Below, piece by piece: positions 377-37,637 of a stretch of DNA of 64,000 bases (its first letter is position 1; every line of letters starts with the position of its first letter). Origin of the DNA: Polynucleobacter sp. 71A-WALBACH (lineage in GTDB: Bacteria > Pseudomonadota > Gammaproteobacteria > Burkholderiales > Burkholderiaceae); NCBI RefSeq assembly GCF_018882365.1, contig NZ_JACVOP010000003.1:1-64000 (forward strand), written 5' to 3'. The position numbers and the translations under genes were made by a program. The notes under the pieces are model-generated. The model had not been told where the DNA came from and did no database searches. It saw only the letters and a list, made by a program, of their open reading frames with translations.

Positions 377-427
377 TATTTGGCTCCTCGACCTGGGCTC
401 GAACCAGGGACCTACGGATTAACAGTC
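377..427. repeat. Left attachment site: orphan 3' part of tRNA-Asn (51-bp direct repeat)
   Basis: These 51 bases are identical to 37558-37608, which cover the 3' part of the intact tRNA-Asn gene from CCA through the anticodon. After base 427 the sequence diverges, so this copy has no 5' half and cannot make a tRNA. A partial tRNA repeat at the far end of a region carrying a tRNA-adjacent tyrosine integrase is the standard footprint of site-specific integration. The next 208 bases (428-635) hold no gene that I can support. Confidence 0.92.
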
Positions 428-31700: not shown

Positions 31701-31756
31701 TCAAGGTTGGTATCTTGGATGGGATTTGAACCTACGACCGTCGTGTTATGAGCTCC
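31701..31756. repeat. tRNA-Met-like 3' half with right copy of the 18-bp repeat
   Basis: On the minus strand the sequence reads CTCATAA (anticodon loop with CAT), then GGTCGTAGGTTCAAATCC and CCAAGATACCA, the pattern of a tRNA 3' half. There is no 5' half, and the T-stem has a mismatch, so it is not a functional tRNA. Its last 18 bases match 28182-28199 with one change. It may be an attachment-site relic. Nothing else is seen in 31655-31816. Confidence 0.45.
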
Positions 31757-31816: not shown

Positions 31817-32008
31817 TCAAATTTCTAGTGCCGGCATCAAGGGTAACATCACATGCTGTTTTTCTAAAAAGTCAGTAAACGACTTCTTAGTGGTCTTTGA
31901 GGCTAATGTTACATAGTTTCGGGTTGCTGGAATGACGGTTGTTTTGTGTCGTGAGTAATCGTAGAGGGCAGCCTTGAGAATACGGTCGCCCTCTGCCCAA
32001 ACTGCCAT
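31817..32008 (-). CDS. Small hypothetical protein or gene fragment
   Basis: 63 residues from ATG 32008; a GTG at 32020 is in frame. The sequence (MAVWAEGDRILKAALYDYS...) is basic and soluble and I do not recognise it. It lies at the end of the phage-like block, same strand. It could be the remnant of a larger gene. The next 143 bases hold nothing I can support. Confidence 0.3.
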   Translation of the reverse strand: MAVWAEGDRILKAALYDYSRHKTTVIPATRNYVTLASKTTKKSFTDFLEKQHVMLPLMPALEI

Positions 32009-32151
32009 CGTCGAATGCACGTTCTCTATTCTCTATTCTGATGCCGATAAAAACTTAATATTCACCAAAATAGCATTACATCAATAGTTGCTTTAAATCT
32101 TTCTAGTGACCAACGGATCGTTGGTCCGTTGGTTAATGAAGATGGCTAGGG

Positions 32152-32640
32152 CTATTTCTTGGCAAGCACACTATCTAGGTCAAATGGCTCTTTAGGTTCA
32201 TTGCTGTATCCATAGGGTCCTCGCATAAATCTCTCAAATTCAGGGTTTGGTTTTGGTTTTAGAGGAAATCGACTCTTCGGCGTCAGTCCCAGCTCATTCA
32301 TCAATAAAACAGCTTTTGTAATAGCCTTATCCCGAATGTCGACATGATGATTCTTACCGGTTACACCATTGTGGTGAGTCACTACAAGCCCGTTGGTGGA
32401 GATTTCTTTGCAACAGGTAACAAAGGTCTCTAGAACCTCTGCGAGCATGGCTAGCGCGTGTTTATCCTGCTCTGTGCTGCTCCCGTATGCATCCCATAGA
32501 TACTGAGAAGCTTCGTTGATAAAAGTATATTTATTCCAGGTTTGTGGGTCCTTAATCCAGCGCGCCAATGGAATTCTTTGTAATACATCCTCGTTATCTG
32601 GCTCTTGGTTAACTGAAGTTAAATGTTGTTTGTTTTTCAT
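32152..32640 (-). CDS. Phage terminase small subunit, P27-like
   Basis: 162 residues from ATG 32640; a TTG at 32664 is possible. The C-terminal half, with ITKAVLLMNELGLTPKSRF, resembles the P27 family of small terminase subunits, in which GLTPxSR is conserved. These proteins recognise phage DNA for packaging. No large terminase, portal or capsid gene follows, so if functional it would redirect a helper phage's packaging, as satellites do. Its start lies inside the preceding gene (32-base overlap). Confidence 0.6.
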   Translation of the reverse strand: MKNKQHLTSVNQEPDNEDVLQRIPLARWIKDPQTWNKYTFINEASQYLWDAYGSSTEQDKHALAMLAEVLETFVTCCKEISTNGLVVTHHNGVTGKNHHVDIRDKAITKAVLLMNELGLTPKSRFPLKPKPNPEFERFMRGPYGYSNEPKEPFDLDSVLAKK

Positions 32641-33055
32641 GATGGGAATACCCCTGTTTTTCAAAGTTGGTCTTGCGAAAATTTGCCCCTGTACCTGCTA
32701 TGGTGCTTTTGGGCTGCGTTTTAGTTTCTAAAGTTGTGGAGGTTGGTGTTTGGCTGCGTCTACCCGCCTGACCAACATCAAGAAGGGTAACGATGGGATA
32801 GGCACCCCTTAGTAGAGATAGTTCAATTAGTCCTGCGTCATGCAATCGCTTTAAGCATCGCTGCCTTGATTGCCTAGTGATTCCTGAAAGTAGGTCAATG
32901 TTGCGATCCAACTTAACGGTATACGAACCATTAATTCCGACATAAAACCAAAGCGATTGGGCAATGACCCCCGTTGCAGTGCCAAGTTGATTTGCCCTAT
33001 AACTCCACCAATAAGGTATTGGACCTTTTGTGAATAAGTGTAATTTTGTATGCAT
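32609..33055 (-). CDS. Small winged-helix DNA-binding protein
   Basis: 148 residues. After an N-terminal strand-rich stretch comes a helix-turn-helix-like region (LDRNIDLLSGITRQSRQRCLKRLHDAGLIELSLLRG), resembling replication-initiator or phage regulatory winged helices. The C-terminus is low in structure (TPTSTTLETKTQPKS). It lies between the polymerase and the small terminase. Likely a regulator or replication factor of the element; family not pinned down. Confidence 0.5.
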   Translation of the reverse strand: MHTKLHLFTKGPIPYWWSYRANQLGTATGVIAQSLWFYVGINGSYTVKLDRNIDLLSGITRQSRQRCLKRLHDAGLIELSLLRGAYPIVTLLDVGQAGRRSQTPTSTTLETKTQPKSTIAGTGANFRKTNFEKQGYSHHEKQTTFNFS

Positions 33056-33117
33056 AAATATTATTAAATAAAAGATAAATAGATTGGACAGGTGTTAAGT
33101 TAGTTAACAGGATGGTG

Positions 33118-34869
33118 TTAACTTGCTAACTCCTCGTGCTGGACGATTTGAAGAATTTCCATTACCTTCTCCCAAAACTCTGCTGCGCCATCTTCCAGAA
33201 ATCGTTGTGGATAACGCAGAATTGCCGCATCACTGGATAGCGCAAATCCTGAAAGCATTTTTTGACTGGCTAAACTCATGCAGGTTTGTGCAATGGATAC
33301 ATGCTCTTCAATCAGGTCATCTGGGGCTTGAATGAGAACTGCATCATGCACGGGCGCACACAAAGTAATATCGTTTTCCACCATCAAAATGCAAGCAATA
33401 CGCAATAACTCAGAAGCATTAGCCTGCATAGGGAAGTTGCGTAGACTGCGTGGATTGAGATCTGATTGAACATTCAAATTCCATCCATAGAGCGTGGTAA
33501 CCCTGTTTGCACTGACAGTATGGTTATAAAAGTTATCTGACCAATCCCAAAACTTGCAATAAACACGACGATGAATATCAAGGAGTTGCTTGGCACGAAT
33601 CTTAGGTTGCTTAATGCGTAGCGCTAAGGCGTCTGCACCCATGCCATACTGGGTTGCTAAGACACATTGCTTATATTGCTCGCGCTCAGCAGCATGGGAT
33701 TTCTTGGTTGCATCCTGTGGAACCGCTCCTGCTTGCTTTGCAAAGGCGAGATAGGGATCGCCACTCATATAGGCGGCTTTCATATTCTCATCATTTGACA
33801 GTGCCGCCGCTATCCCAAACTCTTGCTGACTCCAATCTATATACGCGATTGGTAGCCCTGGCTTTGGCTGGATTAATCCACGCGCCCATTTGCTTAATCC
33901 AAATATAAATTTTGTTGTCGAGGGTTGGTTGCGACCAGTAATAGAGCTAAAGGGCGATAGCAGGCAGCGATTACGACCATCGAGTCCAACTTGTAAGGCA
34001 TTAAGTCGCATCTTCCCAAGGCTGTCGCGCAGGTTACGAAGCGGTGCCAAGATAGGGAAGGTCTTAGCCATGGTTTTGAATGTTTCATCATCCAAGGCCA
34101 GTCTGCCACTTGCTAATCTAGGCCAGCGTATGTTCTGCACCTTTAAATATTCTTCAAATAATGATTCTTTGAAGCTGCCATTTACGTAAACGCCGTAATT
34201 TTGGTCAATATCTTCAATTAACTTGGCTTTAATTGCATCCCAATGTACGCAAAGGTCTTGATAAAGCTCAAAATCAATCGGCACACCAGTTGATTCCATG
34301 ATCGCTAATGCAATGTTGTATCGTCCGCGTAATAGTGCCCTTGGTAAATCTAATAGCGGCGCCATGGCATCTAAAAGATGTTTTAAAGAATCTACGTCGC
34401 TTTGGCAGTATTCAATAAGTTGTTGCTTTTCAAGCTCTGTAAATGGGCTGCCTCGTAGCGCAAGATCGCGCATTTCTGTTTTATGAGTGCCCTCAATTGA
34501 GGGGAGCCCAAAGAACTGTAGTGCGCCCAATAATGAGCGGCCAAATGGAAGGGTGGTGCCATTGGTGAGGTTTCTAAACTCGGTATACAGATCAAGAACG
34601 TAGTCTGGCCATGACCAACCTAGCGCGTCGTAACAACCCATTTCTGCGCTTGCATAAAAAGCCACCAAAATTGCTTTTGGATTTTCCCTGAAAGGGTGGT
34701 CATCCATTGCGTAGAGTTCGTCAGCCCAGATACGCTTATATTCACCTGTACTAGTGTTGTAGGAAACCATACAAATCACTTGAATGGGATTGCCTTCAAT
34801 TCCTCCTATTTGCCTGAATTCAAAATCGATGAGGATGAATTCATAGTCTGATAGATTATTGAGGCCCAT
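33118..34869 (-). CDS. Family A DNA polymerase, phage type
   Basis: 583 residues, much shorter than bacterial DNA polymerase I. The N-terminal 3'-5' exonuclease fold starts with IDFEF (Asp15 and Glu17). The polymerase domain has motif A (YIDWSQQEFGIAAAL, Asp345), a motif-B-like region (REQYKQCVLATQYGMGADAL), and motif C VHDAVL with Asp509. No 5' nuclease domain. Such polymerases replicate phage and satellite genomes. The start codon lies one base after the stop of the upstream unknown gene, so the two are coupled. Confidence 0.9.
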   Translation of the reverse strand: MGLNNLSDYEFILIDFEFRQIGGIEGNPIQVICMVSYNTSTGEYKRIWADELYAMDDHPFRENPKAILVAFYASAEMGCYDALGWSWPDYVLDLYTEFRNLTNGTTLPFGRSLLGALQFFGLPSIEGTHKTEMRDLALRGSPFTELEKQQLIEYCQSDVDSLKHLLDAMAPLLDLPRALLRGRYNIALAIMESTGVPIDFELYQDLCVHWDAIKAKLIEDIDQNYGVYVNGSFKESLFEEYLKVQNIRWPRLASGRLALDDETFKTMAKTFPILAPLRNLRDSLGKMRLNALQVGLDGRNRCLLSPFSSITGRNQPSTTKFIFGLSKWARGLIQPKPGLPIAYIDWSQQEFGIAAALSNDENMKAAYMSGDPYLAFAKQAGAVPQDATKKSHAAEREQYKQCVLATQYGMGADALALRIKQPKIRAKQLLDIHRRVYCKFWDWSDNFYNHTVSANRVTTLYGWNLNVQSDLNPRSLRNFPMQANASELLRIACILMVENDITLCAPVHDAVLIQAPDDLIEEHVSIAQTCMSLASQKMLSGFALSSDAAILRYPQRFLEDGAAEFWEKVMEILQIVQHEELAS

Positions 34870-34870
34870 A

Positions 34871-35437
34871 TCAAACCCTACCTTCTAATTGCTTGATGTA
34901 AGGATGATCTGGGCTGGAGATGACATTATTTAAAAAAACTGCTTGAATAAGCTCAGGCATTGTCTGGTCAGGCCAATGGGGGTCTCCGAGATTATTTGCC
35001 GCCTTAATGATTGTGTATTGCTGGGCATTCATATCGGACTCGATACGAACCCACTCATTCTCGGCAATTTGTATTGCTTGAATACAAGTCACATTCCATA
35101 GATTCGGCCGCCCACTAAGTTCCGGAATTGGCTGGGCAATGATTTTTGGGACTCCAGCGTTATCCACTGCCAATCGAAGCAACTTTGGGGTGGCAGCTTT
35201 GCCTAAATAACCTGCCACAGCATGCGTTGCAATATAGGTCTCGCCACTATCCTTATCCTCCACAATCAAAACAGGCACTTGATAGCTTGGATCCGGGTGC
35301 ACCCTGGAGAATCGGTGCTTATTTAATTTGCCAAATGATGGCTTGGTTGGTAGCTTTACACCCCCTATGGTATTGGAGTATCCATCGGGAAGACGGAGAT
35401 TGTCGAGCCAAGAAGGTTCATTAACTTTCTGTGTCAT
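34871..35437 (-). CDS. Hypothetical protein upstream of the polymerase
   Basis: 188 residues, not recognised. It starts with MTQKVNEPSWLDNLRLPDG behind a perfect GGAGG. Its end, YIKQLEGRV, is one base from the polymerase ATG, and its start overlaps the previous gene by 4 bases. No membrane segment. Tight coupling on both sides suggests it works with the polymerase, perhaps in replication of the element. That is inference. Confidence 0.7.
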   Translation of the reverse strand: MTQKVNEPSWLDNLRLPDGYSNTIGGVKLPTKPSFGKLNKHRFSRVHPDPSYQVPVLIVEDKDSGETYIATHAVAGYLGKAATPKLLRLAVDNAGVPKIIAQPIPELSGRPNLWNVTCIQAIQIAENEWVRIESDMNAQQYTIIKAANNLGDPHWPDQTMPELIQAVFLNNVISSPDHPYIKQLEGRV

Positions 35438-35715
35438 GCGACCTCCTTAGATGAAAGAAGTGCCCCAACTTGTTTAATGCTTGACTCTTGTTTTAATGCA
35501 TTAGTTCCAACTGCGTAAACCACCTCATCAAAATGATTTGCATCAATTAATGTGCGGCCGGTTGGGCATAAGAGGGCTGAAGCTTGAATAAGAAGATTCT
35601 TATTTTTCCTGATAAACCATTGAAGGCTCGCTTCGCTAGGGAAAATATGTGTGCGACCATCGGATATGTAATCCTTCGGTGTCTGTAATAGACTTAAATC
35701 ATTTGTATGTAACAT
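35434..35715 (-). CDS. Small hypothetical protein of the integrative element
   Basis: 93 residues from ATG 35715, behind AGAGG with 6-base spacing; the open frame up to 35775 is not needed. The central part, IFPSEASLQWFIRKNKNLLI, resembles a small helical DNA-binding or recognition domain but no family is certain. Overlaps the next gene by 4 bases. Possibly an accessory replication or excision factor. Confidence 0.6.
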   Translation of the reverse strand: MLHTNDLSLLQTPKDYISDGRTHIFPSEASLQWFIRKNKNLLIQASALLCPTGRTLIDANHFDEVVYAVGTNALKQESSIKQVGALLSSKEVA

Positions 35716-35867
35716 TAAATGCCTCTTAGTGTAAAAAGAAATACCTTGTAGTAACGAGGTTTCCGACCCCGGCACCTAGTTAATTAGCTTGGTGCATCGT
35801 GATCCTAAGAGTTTTATGCTGTTTTAAATATCATCAAAATGCAGCATTTCGGAGGTATCTTTTTCTA

Positions 35868-36473
35868 CTAAACCCTATTTTTGGTAGGTCTAGTTTTTCT
35901 TTTGGGGAATGGATCAAATCCTTTAAGCTTAATTATTTCAGCGGTTATTTCATTCCAAATTTCAGAAATTTCTGATGAGTTAATTTTGTATCGGTTTTGA
36001 ATATTTTCAAATGCTCGAGCGTGAGTAAGTTTGCCTTTTCCTTTTATTAATTCCCGCGTAACTAGGGTATAAATCATTCTCTTCTGGGAAAGAATAAATT
36101 GCTGGTGCAGTCCTTTCTTTTGCTTCAGTGAGGATTTGAAATTTTCTAGAATGTAGGCAAGAATTGGCATGTATGAGGGATGCATCTCAACTTGGCTATT
36201 GAGAAGTTCGCACAATTCCTTTGTTGAATTCTTGATGAAGGCAAACTGGAATGCGATGTAGTATGGTTCCGGATCTATAAATTTACTAACCTGCTGTATT
36301 CCATTTGGTTCTGCGGTGCCCCAGCTTACTTCTGCAGAGCTGGGAAGCACACGTGGCTTAATAATCTGCCTCTTGCTTGATTCCGTGCTACCTCTAAAAA
36401 AGTGGGTTGAAATAATCGGTTCAGATGCGGCTTTATAGGCCTGTTCAAGTTTTTCGTAAATCTCAGGAATCAT
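35868..36473 (-). CDS. Hypothetical protein overlapping the integrase gene
   Basis: 201 residues, not recognised. Charged and mostly helical, with a lysine/arginine-rich end (PFPKRKTRPTKNRV) that could contact DNA. It overlaps the end of the integrase gene by 11 bases, so the two are co-transcribed. Could be an excision or replication partner. The 152 bases after it hold a partial hairpin (GCACCTAG...GGTGC) but no gene. Confidence 0.6.
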   Translation of the reverse strand: MIPEIYEKLEQAYKAASEPIISTHFFRGSTESSKRQIIKPRVLPSSAEVSWGTAEPNGIQQVSKFIDPEPYYIAFQFAFIKNSTKELCELLNSQVEMHPSYMPILAYILENFKSSLKQKKGLHQQFILSQKRMIYTLVTRELIKGKGKLTHARAFENIQNRYKINSSEISEIWNEITAEIIKLKGFDPFPKRKTRPTKNRV

Positions 36474-37479
36474 TGCCTATATCTCCTAATACTCGATTAA
36501 CTAGCGCGCTTTTGTGTTCGGTTGCTAGATGGCTATACCTTTTGGTGACACTTAGATTACGATGCCCAAGTACATCACCTATTTCGAGAAGCGTAGCACC
36601 GTTTTGAGCAAGATATGAAGCGCAGGTATGTCTGAGGTCGTGGAAGCGAAAATTTTTGATCCTTGCTTGTTTTAAAGCTTCTCTCCACACCCAATCAAAG
36701 TGGTATGCAGCATCCGGCCTTAAAGTTGAAGCAAATACAAGTTTGGATTCTGTAGTTTTAAATTTCTCAAGCTCTTGTAATACTGCTGGAACTAATGGGA
36801 GGGTCTTTCTATCGCCATTTTTAGTTCTGTGAATGGCGGCTTCAGCTCTTTCGCAATCAATATCGCCCCATTTGAGGCGCTTTAATTCTCCGCTACGAGC
36901 CCCAGTGGTTAGGGCTAAGAGGGTTAGAAGGTATAGTTTTGGCCACTTAGATTGTTTGCATGCATTGAGTAACGTAATACGTTCATCTTTATCCAAAAAA
37001 CGAACAACTTCGTTGTGTTCGGGTGATTTTTCAATTCCCTTGCATGGGTTGGACCAGCCTTTTGGGGCTATACGTTTTTTAATGCACCAAGTAAATAGAG
37101 CTGCCATGGTAGCCACATATCTATTAAGTGTGGCGGCGGTATAAGGTTTATTCTTGGCTTTATAGATGGAATTTCCATCGGCGTCTTTGCCTGCGTAGTA
37201 ACGAGGTTTTTTGCTCGAGAGCTCCTCAATTGCGTAAAAAATATGGTCTTCATCAACCTCTATAAGGGTGAGATGGCCAATTTTGGCTTGCCACCATGCC
37301 ATGCGCTGGGCGCGACTCTCGTCACGGCCCTCATAGGCAGCCATATATGCATCAATTGCTTGGAAGATAGTTATGAGGCCTGAGCGCTCATAAAGAGCGG
37401 GGCGACTGCTTGTGCCAGTTTGCAACGTGCCGGAAATCACTGTTGCAGGCCCACTGGCGGGCGTTGTAGAACGATTCAT
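36463..37479 (-). CDS. Tyrosine recombinase/integrase of the island
   Basis: 338 residues with all catalytic residues: Arg195 in TTGARSGELKRLKW, Lys220 region RTKNGDRKT, HDLRH (His280, Arg283), His306 in LGHRNLS and the nucleophile Tyr315 in TKRYSHL. An N-terminal SAM-like DNA-binding domain precedes it. It should insert and excise the island at the 3' part of tRNA-Asn, whose gene starts 83 bases upstream on the same strand; readthrough from the tRNA promoter could therefore express the integrase while the element is integrated. AAGGG lies 6 bases before the start. Confidence 0.95.
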   Translation of the reverse strand: MNRSTTPASGPATVISGTLQTGTSSRPALYERSGLITIFQAIDAYMAAYEGRDESRAQRMAWWQAKIGHLTLIEVDEDHIFYAIEELSSKKPRYYAGKDADGNSIYKAKNKPYTAATLNRYVATMAALFTWCIKKRIAPKGWSNPCKGIEKSPEHNEVVRFLDKDERITLLNACKQSKWPKLYLLTLLALTTGARSGELKRLKWGDIDCERAEAAIHRTKNGDRKTLPLVPAVLQELEKFKTTESKLVFASTLRPDAAYHFDWVWREALKQARIKNFRFHDLRHTCASYLAQNGATLLEIGDVLGHRNLSVTKRYSHLATEHKSALVNRVLGDIGNDS

Positions 37480-37557: not shown

Positions 37558-37608
37558 TATTTGGCTCCTCGACCTGGGCTCGAACCAGGGACCTACGGAT
37601 TAACAGTC
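37558..37608. repeat. Right attachment site within tRNA-Asn (51-bp direct repeat)
   Basis: Identical over 51 bases to 377-427. It covers the tRNA from CCA to just past the anticodon loop, plus a few bases outside. Integration here keeps the tRNA whole because the island brings an identical 3' part. Confidence 0.92.
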
Positions 37609-37637
37609 CGGCGCTCTACCAACTGAGCTATCGAGGA
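37562..37637 (-). tRNA. tRNA-Asn (GTT)
   Basis: The minus strand folds as a full cloverleaf: acceptor TCCTCGA paired with TCGAGGA, D-arm, anticodon loop CTGTTAA with GTT, T-arm GGTTCGAACCC-like, encoded CCA. 76 nucleotides. It is the integration site of the island to its left. Confidence 0.96.

Follow-up and report, generated by a model that had tools for sequence, protein, structure and literature searches.

What kind of mobile element joins an integrase, a family-A DNA polymerase and a small phage terminase to some 31 kb of other genes in a lake bacterium? The question is raised by a minus-strand block of seven genes in Polynucleobacter sp. 71A-WALBACH (contig NZ_JACVOP010000003.1, positions 1 to 64,000; this 64,000-nucleotide stretch is the window below), which an initial annotation had read as a phage satellite. 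The block proved to lie at the end nearest the tRNA in an island of 37,181 bp, and the comparisons reported here support that reading. The 37.2-kb island is probably a cargo-carrying satellite, packaged by way of a cohesive-end (cos) site and redirecting a helper phage through its own small terminase (TerS).

The island was bounded by a 51-bp perfect direct repeat with a spacing of 37,181 bp, which makes exact the 37 kb of the initial annotation. The repeat was the 3′ end of the tRNA-Asn region; the number of chance occurrences expected for a 25-nt segment of it is 0. When joined, the outer flanks aligned contiguously in congeners, revealing the unoccupied site (best in genome G433, 478 bp at 89%). 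In G458, the same two flanks lay ~17.4 kb apart, with that genome's own member of the family between them. The same tRNA-Asn flanks were ~7.8 kb apart in G439 (contig C3) and ~43 kb apart in G492 (contig C30), with no match to orf4 of the block in either.

All seven genes were confirmed as annotated, on one strand and in the order int, orf2, orf3, orf4, pol, wHTH (winged helix) and terS. The description of them as mostly overlapping held for int/orf2, orf3/orf4 and wHTH/terS; orf2/orf3 and pol/wHTH were separated, and orf4 and pol were 1 nt apart. The start of the block had been placed at 31817 on the strength of a 67-amino-acid (aa) open reading frame (ORF) with a GTG start and no family support, which we did not count as a gene. 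The remaining 31 kb of the island was cargo, and the 10 cargo proteins scanned with Pfam were all metabolic (a dehydratase, pyruvate dehydrogenase E1, a class II aldolase, two sulfatases, a TctC receptor, AtuA, BKACE, a thiamine pyrophosphate enzyme and a GMC oxidoreductase).

The orf4-pol-wHTH core recurred in 14 elements besides the window. These were loci L003, L004 and L005 (Polynucleobacter or labelled Betaproteobacteria), L006 (Methylophilaceae) and viral contig L007 (with L008 as a partial near copy), elements of genomes G410, G501, G458, G434, G461, G432, G423 and G358, and one of another family (G594); in G260, orf4 and pol only were detected. Judging from positions and identities, L003, L004 and L005 are apparently the elements of G551, G450 and G538, respectively. 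In elements at tRNA-Asn, tRNA-Lys and tRNA-Ser sites, identity to the window copies was 33 to 97% for orf4 and 42 to 95% for pol. The proposal of a separate lineage with a family-A polymerase was supported, the core being found in Polynucleobacter, in viral contigs, and in further families at the level of the order and of the class. Within the genus, 11 of 186 genomes had orf4, and within the order 4 of 399 did (own genome in both counts; one of the four barely significant); the polymerase was present at an E value of ≤1e-40 in 2 of 369 genomes of the class, including that of the window. The pol genes of G432 and G434 were broken. Viral contigs scanned with the unaligned polymerase, an orf4 alignment and a first TerS alignment gave no relative; scans with a polymerase alignment and a wider TerS alignment did. 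A plasmid search gave a single match of 27.6%, and the phage of CP017838 (28% polymerase match) was set aside, no terminase being seen by eye in the two stretches examined.

Integrases and cargo differed among elements sharing the core. Three were at tRNA-Asn (window, L003 and G458), three at tRNA-Lys (L005/G538, L007 and G410) and two at tRNA-Ser (G461 and G432). Among the cargo genes read by eye were copper and heavy-metal efflux (G410, G432 and part of G461), cytochromes and a P-type ATPase (G458), and TctC and coenzyme A-type metabolism (G501). In the cargo of G538, PADLOC reported models for type IV restriction along with a match resembling ZorA; of eight cargo proteins scanned there, one matched two tail PHROGs (E values, 1.6e-6 and 1e-4), and PADLOC matched the same protein to MotA/ExbB/TolQ-like ZorA (E value, 4.7e-6).

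The link to a particular class of phage runs through the terminase and through the DNA beside it. Among 50,697 records, the closest phage TerS was the first gene of Methylophilaceae phage P19250A (42.6% over 126 aa; E value, 6e-28), where it directly precedes the gene for the large terminase (TerL). A search with a TerS profile recovered 70 viral loci, including L008 and L052 (the contig of L007), which had been identified as satellites before. All 68 others had a P19250A-like TerL 0 to 197 nt from TerS (touching genes included; 42 of 68 if a gap of >0 nt is required), 63 had a portal match and 55 a capsid match. The six satellite TerS proteins formed one clade among 76 sequences (support, 1.0). 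The initial annotation had named head, tail and portal genes in close relatives as the mark of a degraded prophage at this place. Twelve proteins of P19250A, the one phage type searched (TerL, portal, capsid and tail included; 10 besides TerS and TerL), matched TerS only in 11 sequences (window, L003, L004, L007, G410, G458, G538, G461, G501, G432 and G434), among them G458 at the same tRNA-Asn; L006, G423, G358 and G594 lay outside this search. Genes such as those of capsid-forming satellites (own capsid, portal and TerL) were likewise absent as far as the P19250A type goes, the island ORFs being read by eye.

About 100 nt upstream of terS were common to the six satellites with a P27-family TerS (window, L003, L004, L005, L007 and G410) and aligned with the terS-upstream region of viral contigs. 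When a profile of the six was run against 663,347 bp of phage DNA (the 68 loci plus P19250A), all 15 best matches (E values, 7.6e-4 to 0.33) ended 8 to 20 nt before TerS. None of 15 did so in any of 20 column shuffles (one shuffle reached an E value of 0.0067 elsewhere) or with the reversed profile, and 13 to 15 of 15 still did when each satellite was left out in turn. The block lay inside or ended the wHTH gene in the window, L003, L004 and L005, mostly outside it in G410, and wholly outside the listed ORFs in L007, where it stood beside the second of two TerS genes. Since it is mostly (G410) or wholly (L007) non-coding yet next to TerS in these two, DNA rather than peptide appears to have been kept. 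The sequences of 22 of the 68 phage loci start with CCCAAT, and in 13 TerS begins at base 44. We read this common start as a cos site at a fixed end of the genome, the alternative being a break in assembly.

Packaging from cos sites, as in lambda and P4, requires a roughly full head, so element lengths are expected to be whole fractions of the helper genome. Lengths between attachment (att) sites were 37,181 bp in the window, 19,662 bp in G538, 18,586 bp in G410, 18,272 bp in G432, 17,483 bp in G458, 16,632 bp in G501 and 15,975 bp in G461. Relative to P19250A, one copy of the window island comes to 0.96 of the length and two copies of each of the other six to 0.83 to 1.02. The att matches were short in three of these (a 16-bp repeat with no intact tRNA in the stretch for G501; 13 to 14 matching bases for G461 and G432), and their sizes are therefore weaker than the other four; G434, for which the second att copy was not found, was excluded. 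Of the seven elements sized, only the window, G410 and G538 belong to the P27 subtype, the one on which the helper link was tested. A log-uniform chance estimate for the sizes used windows set once the data were known and carries no weight as evidence. The record of P19250A was 38,749 bp long, and 11 viral contigs of at least 30 kb with a related TerS measured 34,396 to 38,895 bp, so the earlier remark that 37 kb is a large load for a single head was not supported. In the excerpts of PMC8163748, the length of P19250A is 38,562 bp and that of Venkman, a marine relative, 38,624 bp.

Several results weigh against a cos-packaged satellite. The TerS score was under the NCBIfam P27 cut-off (33.8 versus 45.6 bits). 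The phages with block matches are mutually related, and their matches are not independent. The reverse search, with a phage profile against 13 satellite sequences, was weak: G410, L004 and L003 came first (E values, 0.11 to 0.39), L005/G538 eighth and ninth (E value, 3.2) and the window block 23rd (E value, 17), and the L007 block was not found. P19250A itself was unmatched, none of its first six matches lying at the junction, because its record ends in unrelated sequence at the upstream half of the block. The block centre, the presumed cut position, was poorly conserved. The size pattern was drawn post hoc from seven elements, three of them with the short att matches, and a second island of the same genome, on contig C5, is also 36.8 kb long without pol or TerS, so 37 kb alone proves nothing. 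Finally, P19250A, the only cultured relative, infects Methylophilaceae, and P19250A-like TerL was absent from the window's own genome and present as three distant proteins (28 to 35%) in 186 congeners; the helper must therefore come from outside.

The position behind wHTH appeared exchangeable. Besides the six elements with a P27 TerS there, five had a protein with an HGAH motif (L006, G501, G434, G461 and G423), G458 had a DUF5681 protein (PF18932; E value, 1.1e-11), with a related piece in G432, and G594 had an unassigned 110-aa protein. None of the three was recognized as a terminase, and that they too serve packaging is a guess. The HGAH protein had no phage match, and the DUF5681 protein had one match, to an unannotated 8.7-kb record. 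The two P27 TerS genes of L007 (5184-5597 and 5735-6136) were of different kinds, the first ~31% identical to TerS of Salmonella and Moraxella phages and the second of the P19250A-related type. A conserved DNA block (TTTGCATRGGT, 27 to 29 nt, AAAGACCCC) lay upstream of the HGAH gene in all five elements and is perhaps a packaging site for another helper; a pattern of this upstream DNA gave four viral matches, which were judged from their context to be chance.

These observations suggest a cycle in which TerS and the cos-like block would divert the packaging of a helper. Infection by a P19250A-related cos phage would lead the integrase to excise the island, and the island's own polymerase would copy it into end-joined copies, with orf4 as a possible single-stranded DNA-binding (SSB)-like partner, wHTH as initiator or regulator, and helicase and primase supplied by host or phage. 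The satellite TerS would then bind the cos-like block and recruit the phage TerL, and ordinary phage heads would be filled with one 37-kb copy or with two copies of the 16- to 20-kb relatives. On injection from such particles into another cell, the island would integrate at tRNA-Asn and deliver its catabolic cargo.

One alternative, itself unlikely, limits the satellite to the ~5.8 kb from tRNA-Asn to a diverged tRNA-Met 3′ end and makes the 31-kb metabolic part an older, separate and immobile island. The tRNA-Met piece lies directly beyond terS and likely marks where an earlier island ended, now enclosed in the present one; an IS30-like gene stands closely behind terS in L003 (by eye), and in L007, which contains a tRNA, one gene separates TerS from apparently chromosomal genes (by eye). 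Against so short an element, the distal copy of the repeat is the only att partner found within the window for the tRNA-Asn copy, and in G410, G458 and G538 the matching att lies 17.5 to 19.7 kb away and encloses the cargo. The tRNA-Met relic leaves room for the annotation's suggestion that the cargo was added later, which agrees less well with the position of cargo between the att sites in every other element with both ends known.

It is improbable that the island is instead a self-replicating integrative element that uses TerS and the upstream site for gene regulation or plasmid-like copy control and moves by conjugation, vesicles or transformation. Such an element would suit the presence of HGAH, DUF5681 or 110-aa proteins where others have TerS, but autoregulation alone does not predict that the block matches terS-adjacent phage DNA at similar spacing, and the second P27 TerS of L007 also speaks against it.

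A 10-kb viral contig, L009, bears on the origin of the cassette. It carried, in this order and with other genes interspersed, an orf4-like gene (27 to 29%), pol (36%), wHTH, a PHROG 57 TerS and a gpA-type TerL; the satellite cassette resembles such a phage segment cut before TerL, in which case the type of TerS would have been exchanged afterwards. Although the cassette may on this gene order descend from a phage, a decayed prophage that kept integrase, replication genes and terS after losing its structural genes is improbable, because many elements that differ in integrase, att site and cargo share this reduced gene set and, in the 11 sequences searched, P19250A proteins match TerS only, because decay would not preserve the terS-adjacent block as DNA where it is non-coding, and because broken pol genes, confined to G432 and G434, show decay as something that occurs and not as the rule.

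A cos-packaged satellite that redirects its helper through TerS can be set beside known systems. P4 and the cos-type Staphylococcus aureus pathogenicity islands (SaPIs) use a cos site and the helper terminase, pac-type SaPIs use their own TerS and pac sites, and proteobacterial phage-inducible chromosomal islands (PICIs) use Rpp plus cos, capsid-forming PICIs also being listed (excerpts of PMC10690885). The window island is like these in that packaging would be redirected by an own TerS or cos sites (PMC10690885), and differs in that its own TerS stands beside a cos-like block, in its family-A polymerase and in cargo of as much as 31 kb. This combination, with no capsid genes, is none of the classes in the excerpts of PMC10690885. 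Phage-inducible chromosomal minimalist islands (PICMIs) likewise have few core genes, no capsid remodelling and concatemer packaging, together with the primase-type Prim and a site next to fis (excerpts of PMC10803314), whereas the window island has a family-A polymerase and tRNA-Asn and neither Prim nor a fis-adjacent site. Tycheposons, which have been reported from Methylophilaceae as well, combine a tyrosine recombinase, a tRNA target and ecological cargo (excerpts of PMC10872708), and the window island has all three; neither "terminase" nor "DNA polymerase" occurs in the main text of PMC10872708. Marine virion-encapsidated integrative mobile elements (VEIMEs) are described as phage satellites (excerpts of PMC10803314 and PMC10690885). 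They are known from virion DNA, and the window island from sequence alone. Tycheposons and VEIMEs are the nearest in life style. Some tycheposons have been described as satellites, and a deep-branching recombinase is their hallmark (Prochlorococcus).

P19250A and its related contigs resemble the island in TerS and, for the related contigs, in the DNA beside terS, and are phages with TerL, portal, capsid and tail genes, unlike the island. Of the general features of satellites, the island has an integrase with flanking att sites, no head or tail genes of the P19250A type and, judged by sequence, a packaging-diverting gene and site (TerS and the cos-like block) whose function we infer. Among the matches listed from open-access titles and abstract openings, a scope with subscription journals mostly outside it, there was no such element in Polynucleobacter.

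These results tie an island of a lake bacterium to a specific phage class by both a protein and a DNA site, which opens the question of how such islands move to direct test, and they describe a satellite core with a DNA polymerase in place of a primase, a seemingly exchangeable packaging gene and a checkable rule of length. If the reading is true, genes for catabolism, metal resistance and restriction pass among freshwater bacteria in ordinary phage particles, tens of kilobases at a time. A wider proposal is tentative and rather doubtful: that of a freshwater satellite family which replicates by a family-A polymerase, switches helper by swapping the gene behind wHTH together with the DNA site before it, is held by cos packaging to total lengths that are whole fractions of that of the helper (one 37-kb or two 16- to 20-kb copies per head), and spreads metal-resistance, restriction and catabolic genes in fixed-size parcels.

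The features of the window are collected in Table 1. Polymerase residues D15, E17, D158, D345, E350, H508 and D509, which we take to be the catalytic positions, were invariant in five sequences; neither a helicase nor a primase gene was seen in the cassette. Among L003 to L006, orf3 had a match in L003 only. The orf4 product was 53 to 97% identical to the window copy in L003 to L007, and its predicted fold (predicted local distance difference test [pLDDT], 72.9) found no confident match in fold comparison (best PDB E value, 0.33). Against viral models, its best E value was 1.4e-3 (unnamed or Rho-N proteins), with phage SSB at 0.036, and an OB-fold/SSB-like partner of the polymerase is a weak possibility. 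The wHTH model fell below a pLDDT of 50 at residues 101 to 132 and 134 to 147, and its C-terminal tail is probably disordered.

Table 1. Features of the island and its integration site, in window coordinates
Feature	Position	Strand	Basis or remark
Distal att copy, 51 bp of the tRNA-Asn 3′ end	377-427	-	Perfect repeat of 37558-37608
Cargo region	636-31654		Pfam on 10 proteins; remainder from reading ORFs
Diverged tRNA-Met 3′ end, probably a relic att	31722-31753	-	94% identity to the genome's own tRNA-Met copies (32 nt)
terS, P27-family small terminase	32152-32640/32664	-	PF05119, E value 7.7e-13; PHROG 83, E value 3.9e-14
wHTH, winged-helix protein	32609-33055	-	Weak HTH matches only
Cos-like packaging block (putative), inside the end of the wHTH gene	32641-32742	-	Kept in six satellites; matches phage DNA beside terS
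pol, family-A DNA polymerase with 3′-5′ exonuclease-like N terminus	33118-34869	-	PF00476, E value 1.5e-20; PHROG 17, E value 4.8e-41
orf4, core protein	34871-35437	-	Kept across elements
orf3, small protein	35434-35775	-	GTG start, first ATG at 35715; no family match
orf2, function unassigned	35868-36473	-	Varies among elements; chance-level family matches only; no PADLOC match
int, tyrosine integrase	36463-37479	-	PF00589, E value 1.8e-30; PHROG 1, E value 4.2e-54
Proximal att copy, within intact tRNA-Asn	37558-37608	-	Perfect repeat
tRNA-Asn(gtt), integration target	37562-37637	-	ARAGORN; joined flanks contiguous in congeners

The second island of the genome (G000:C5:15601-52422; L042 and L043) lay at a tRNA-Met, with 36,773 bp between 49-bp repeats, and carried an integrase and, by eye, defense-like genes. 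It was considered as a second satellite and rejected, there being no match to the satellite polymerase or TerS. In G410, a sequence like a tRNA-Ser 3′ end lay just inside the far att of the tRNA-Lys element (near C1:780202; L044), a hint of composite elements. In the window itself, the contig opens (positions 1 to 120) within what by eye appears to be the end of an IS30-family transposase gene.

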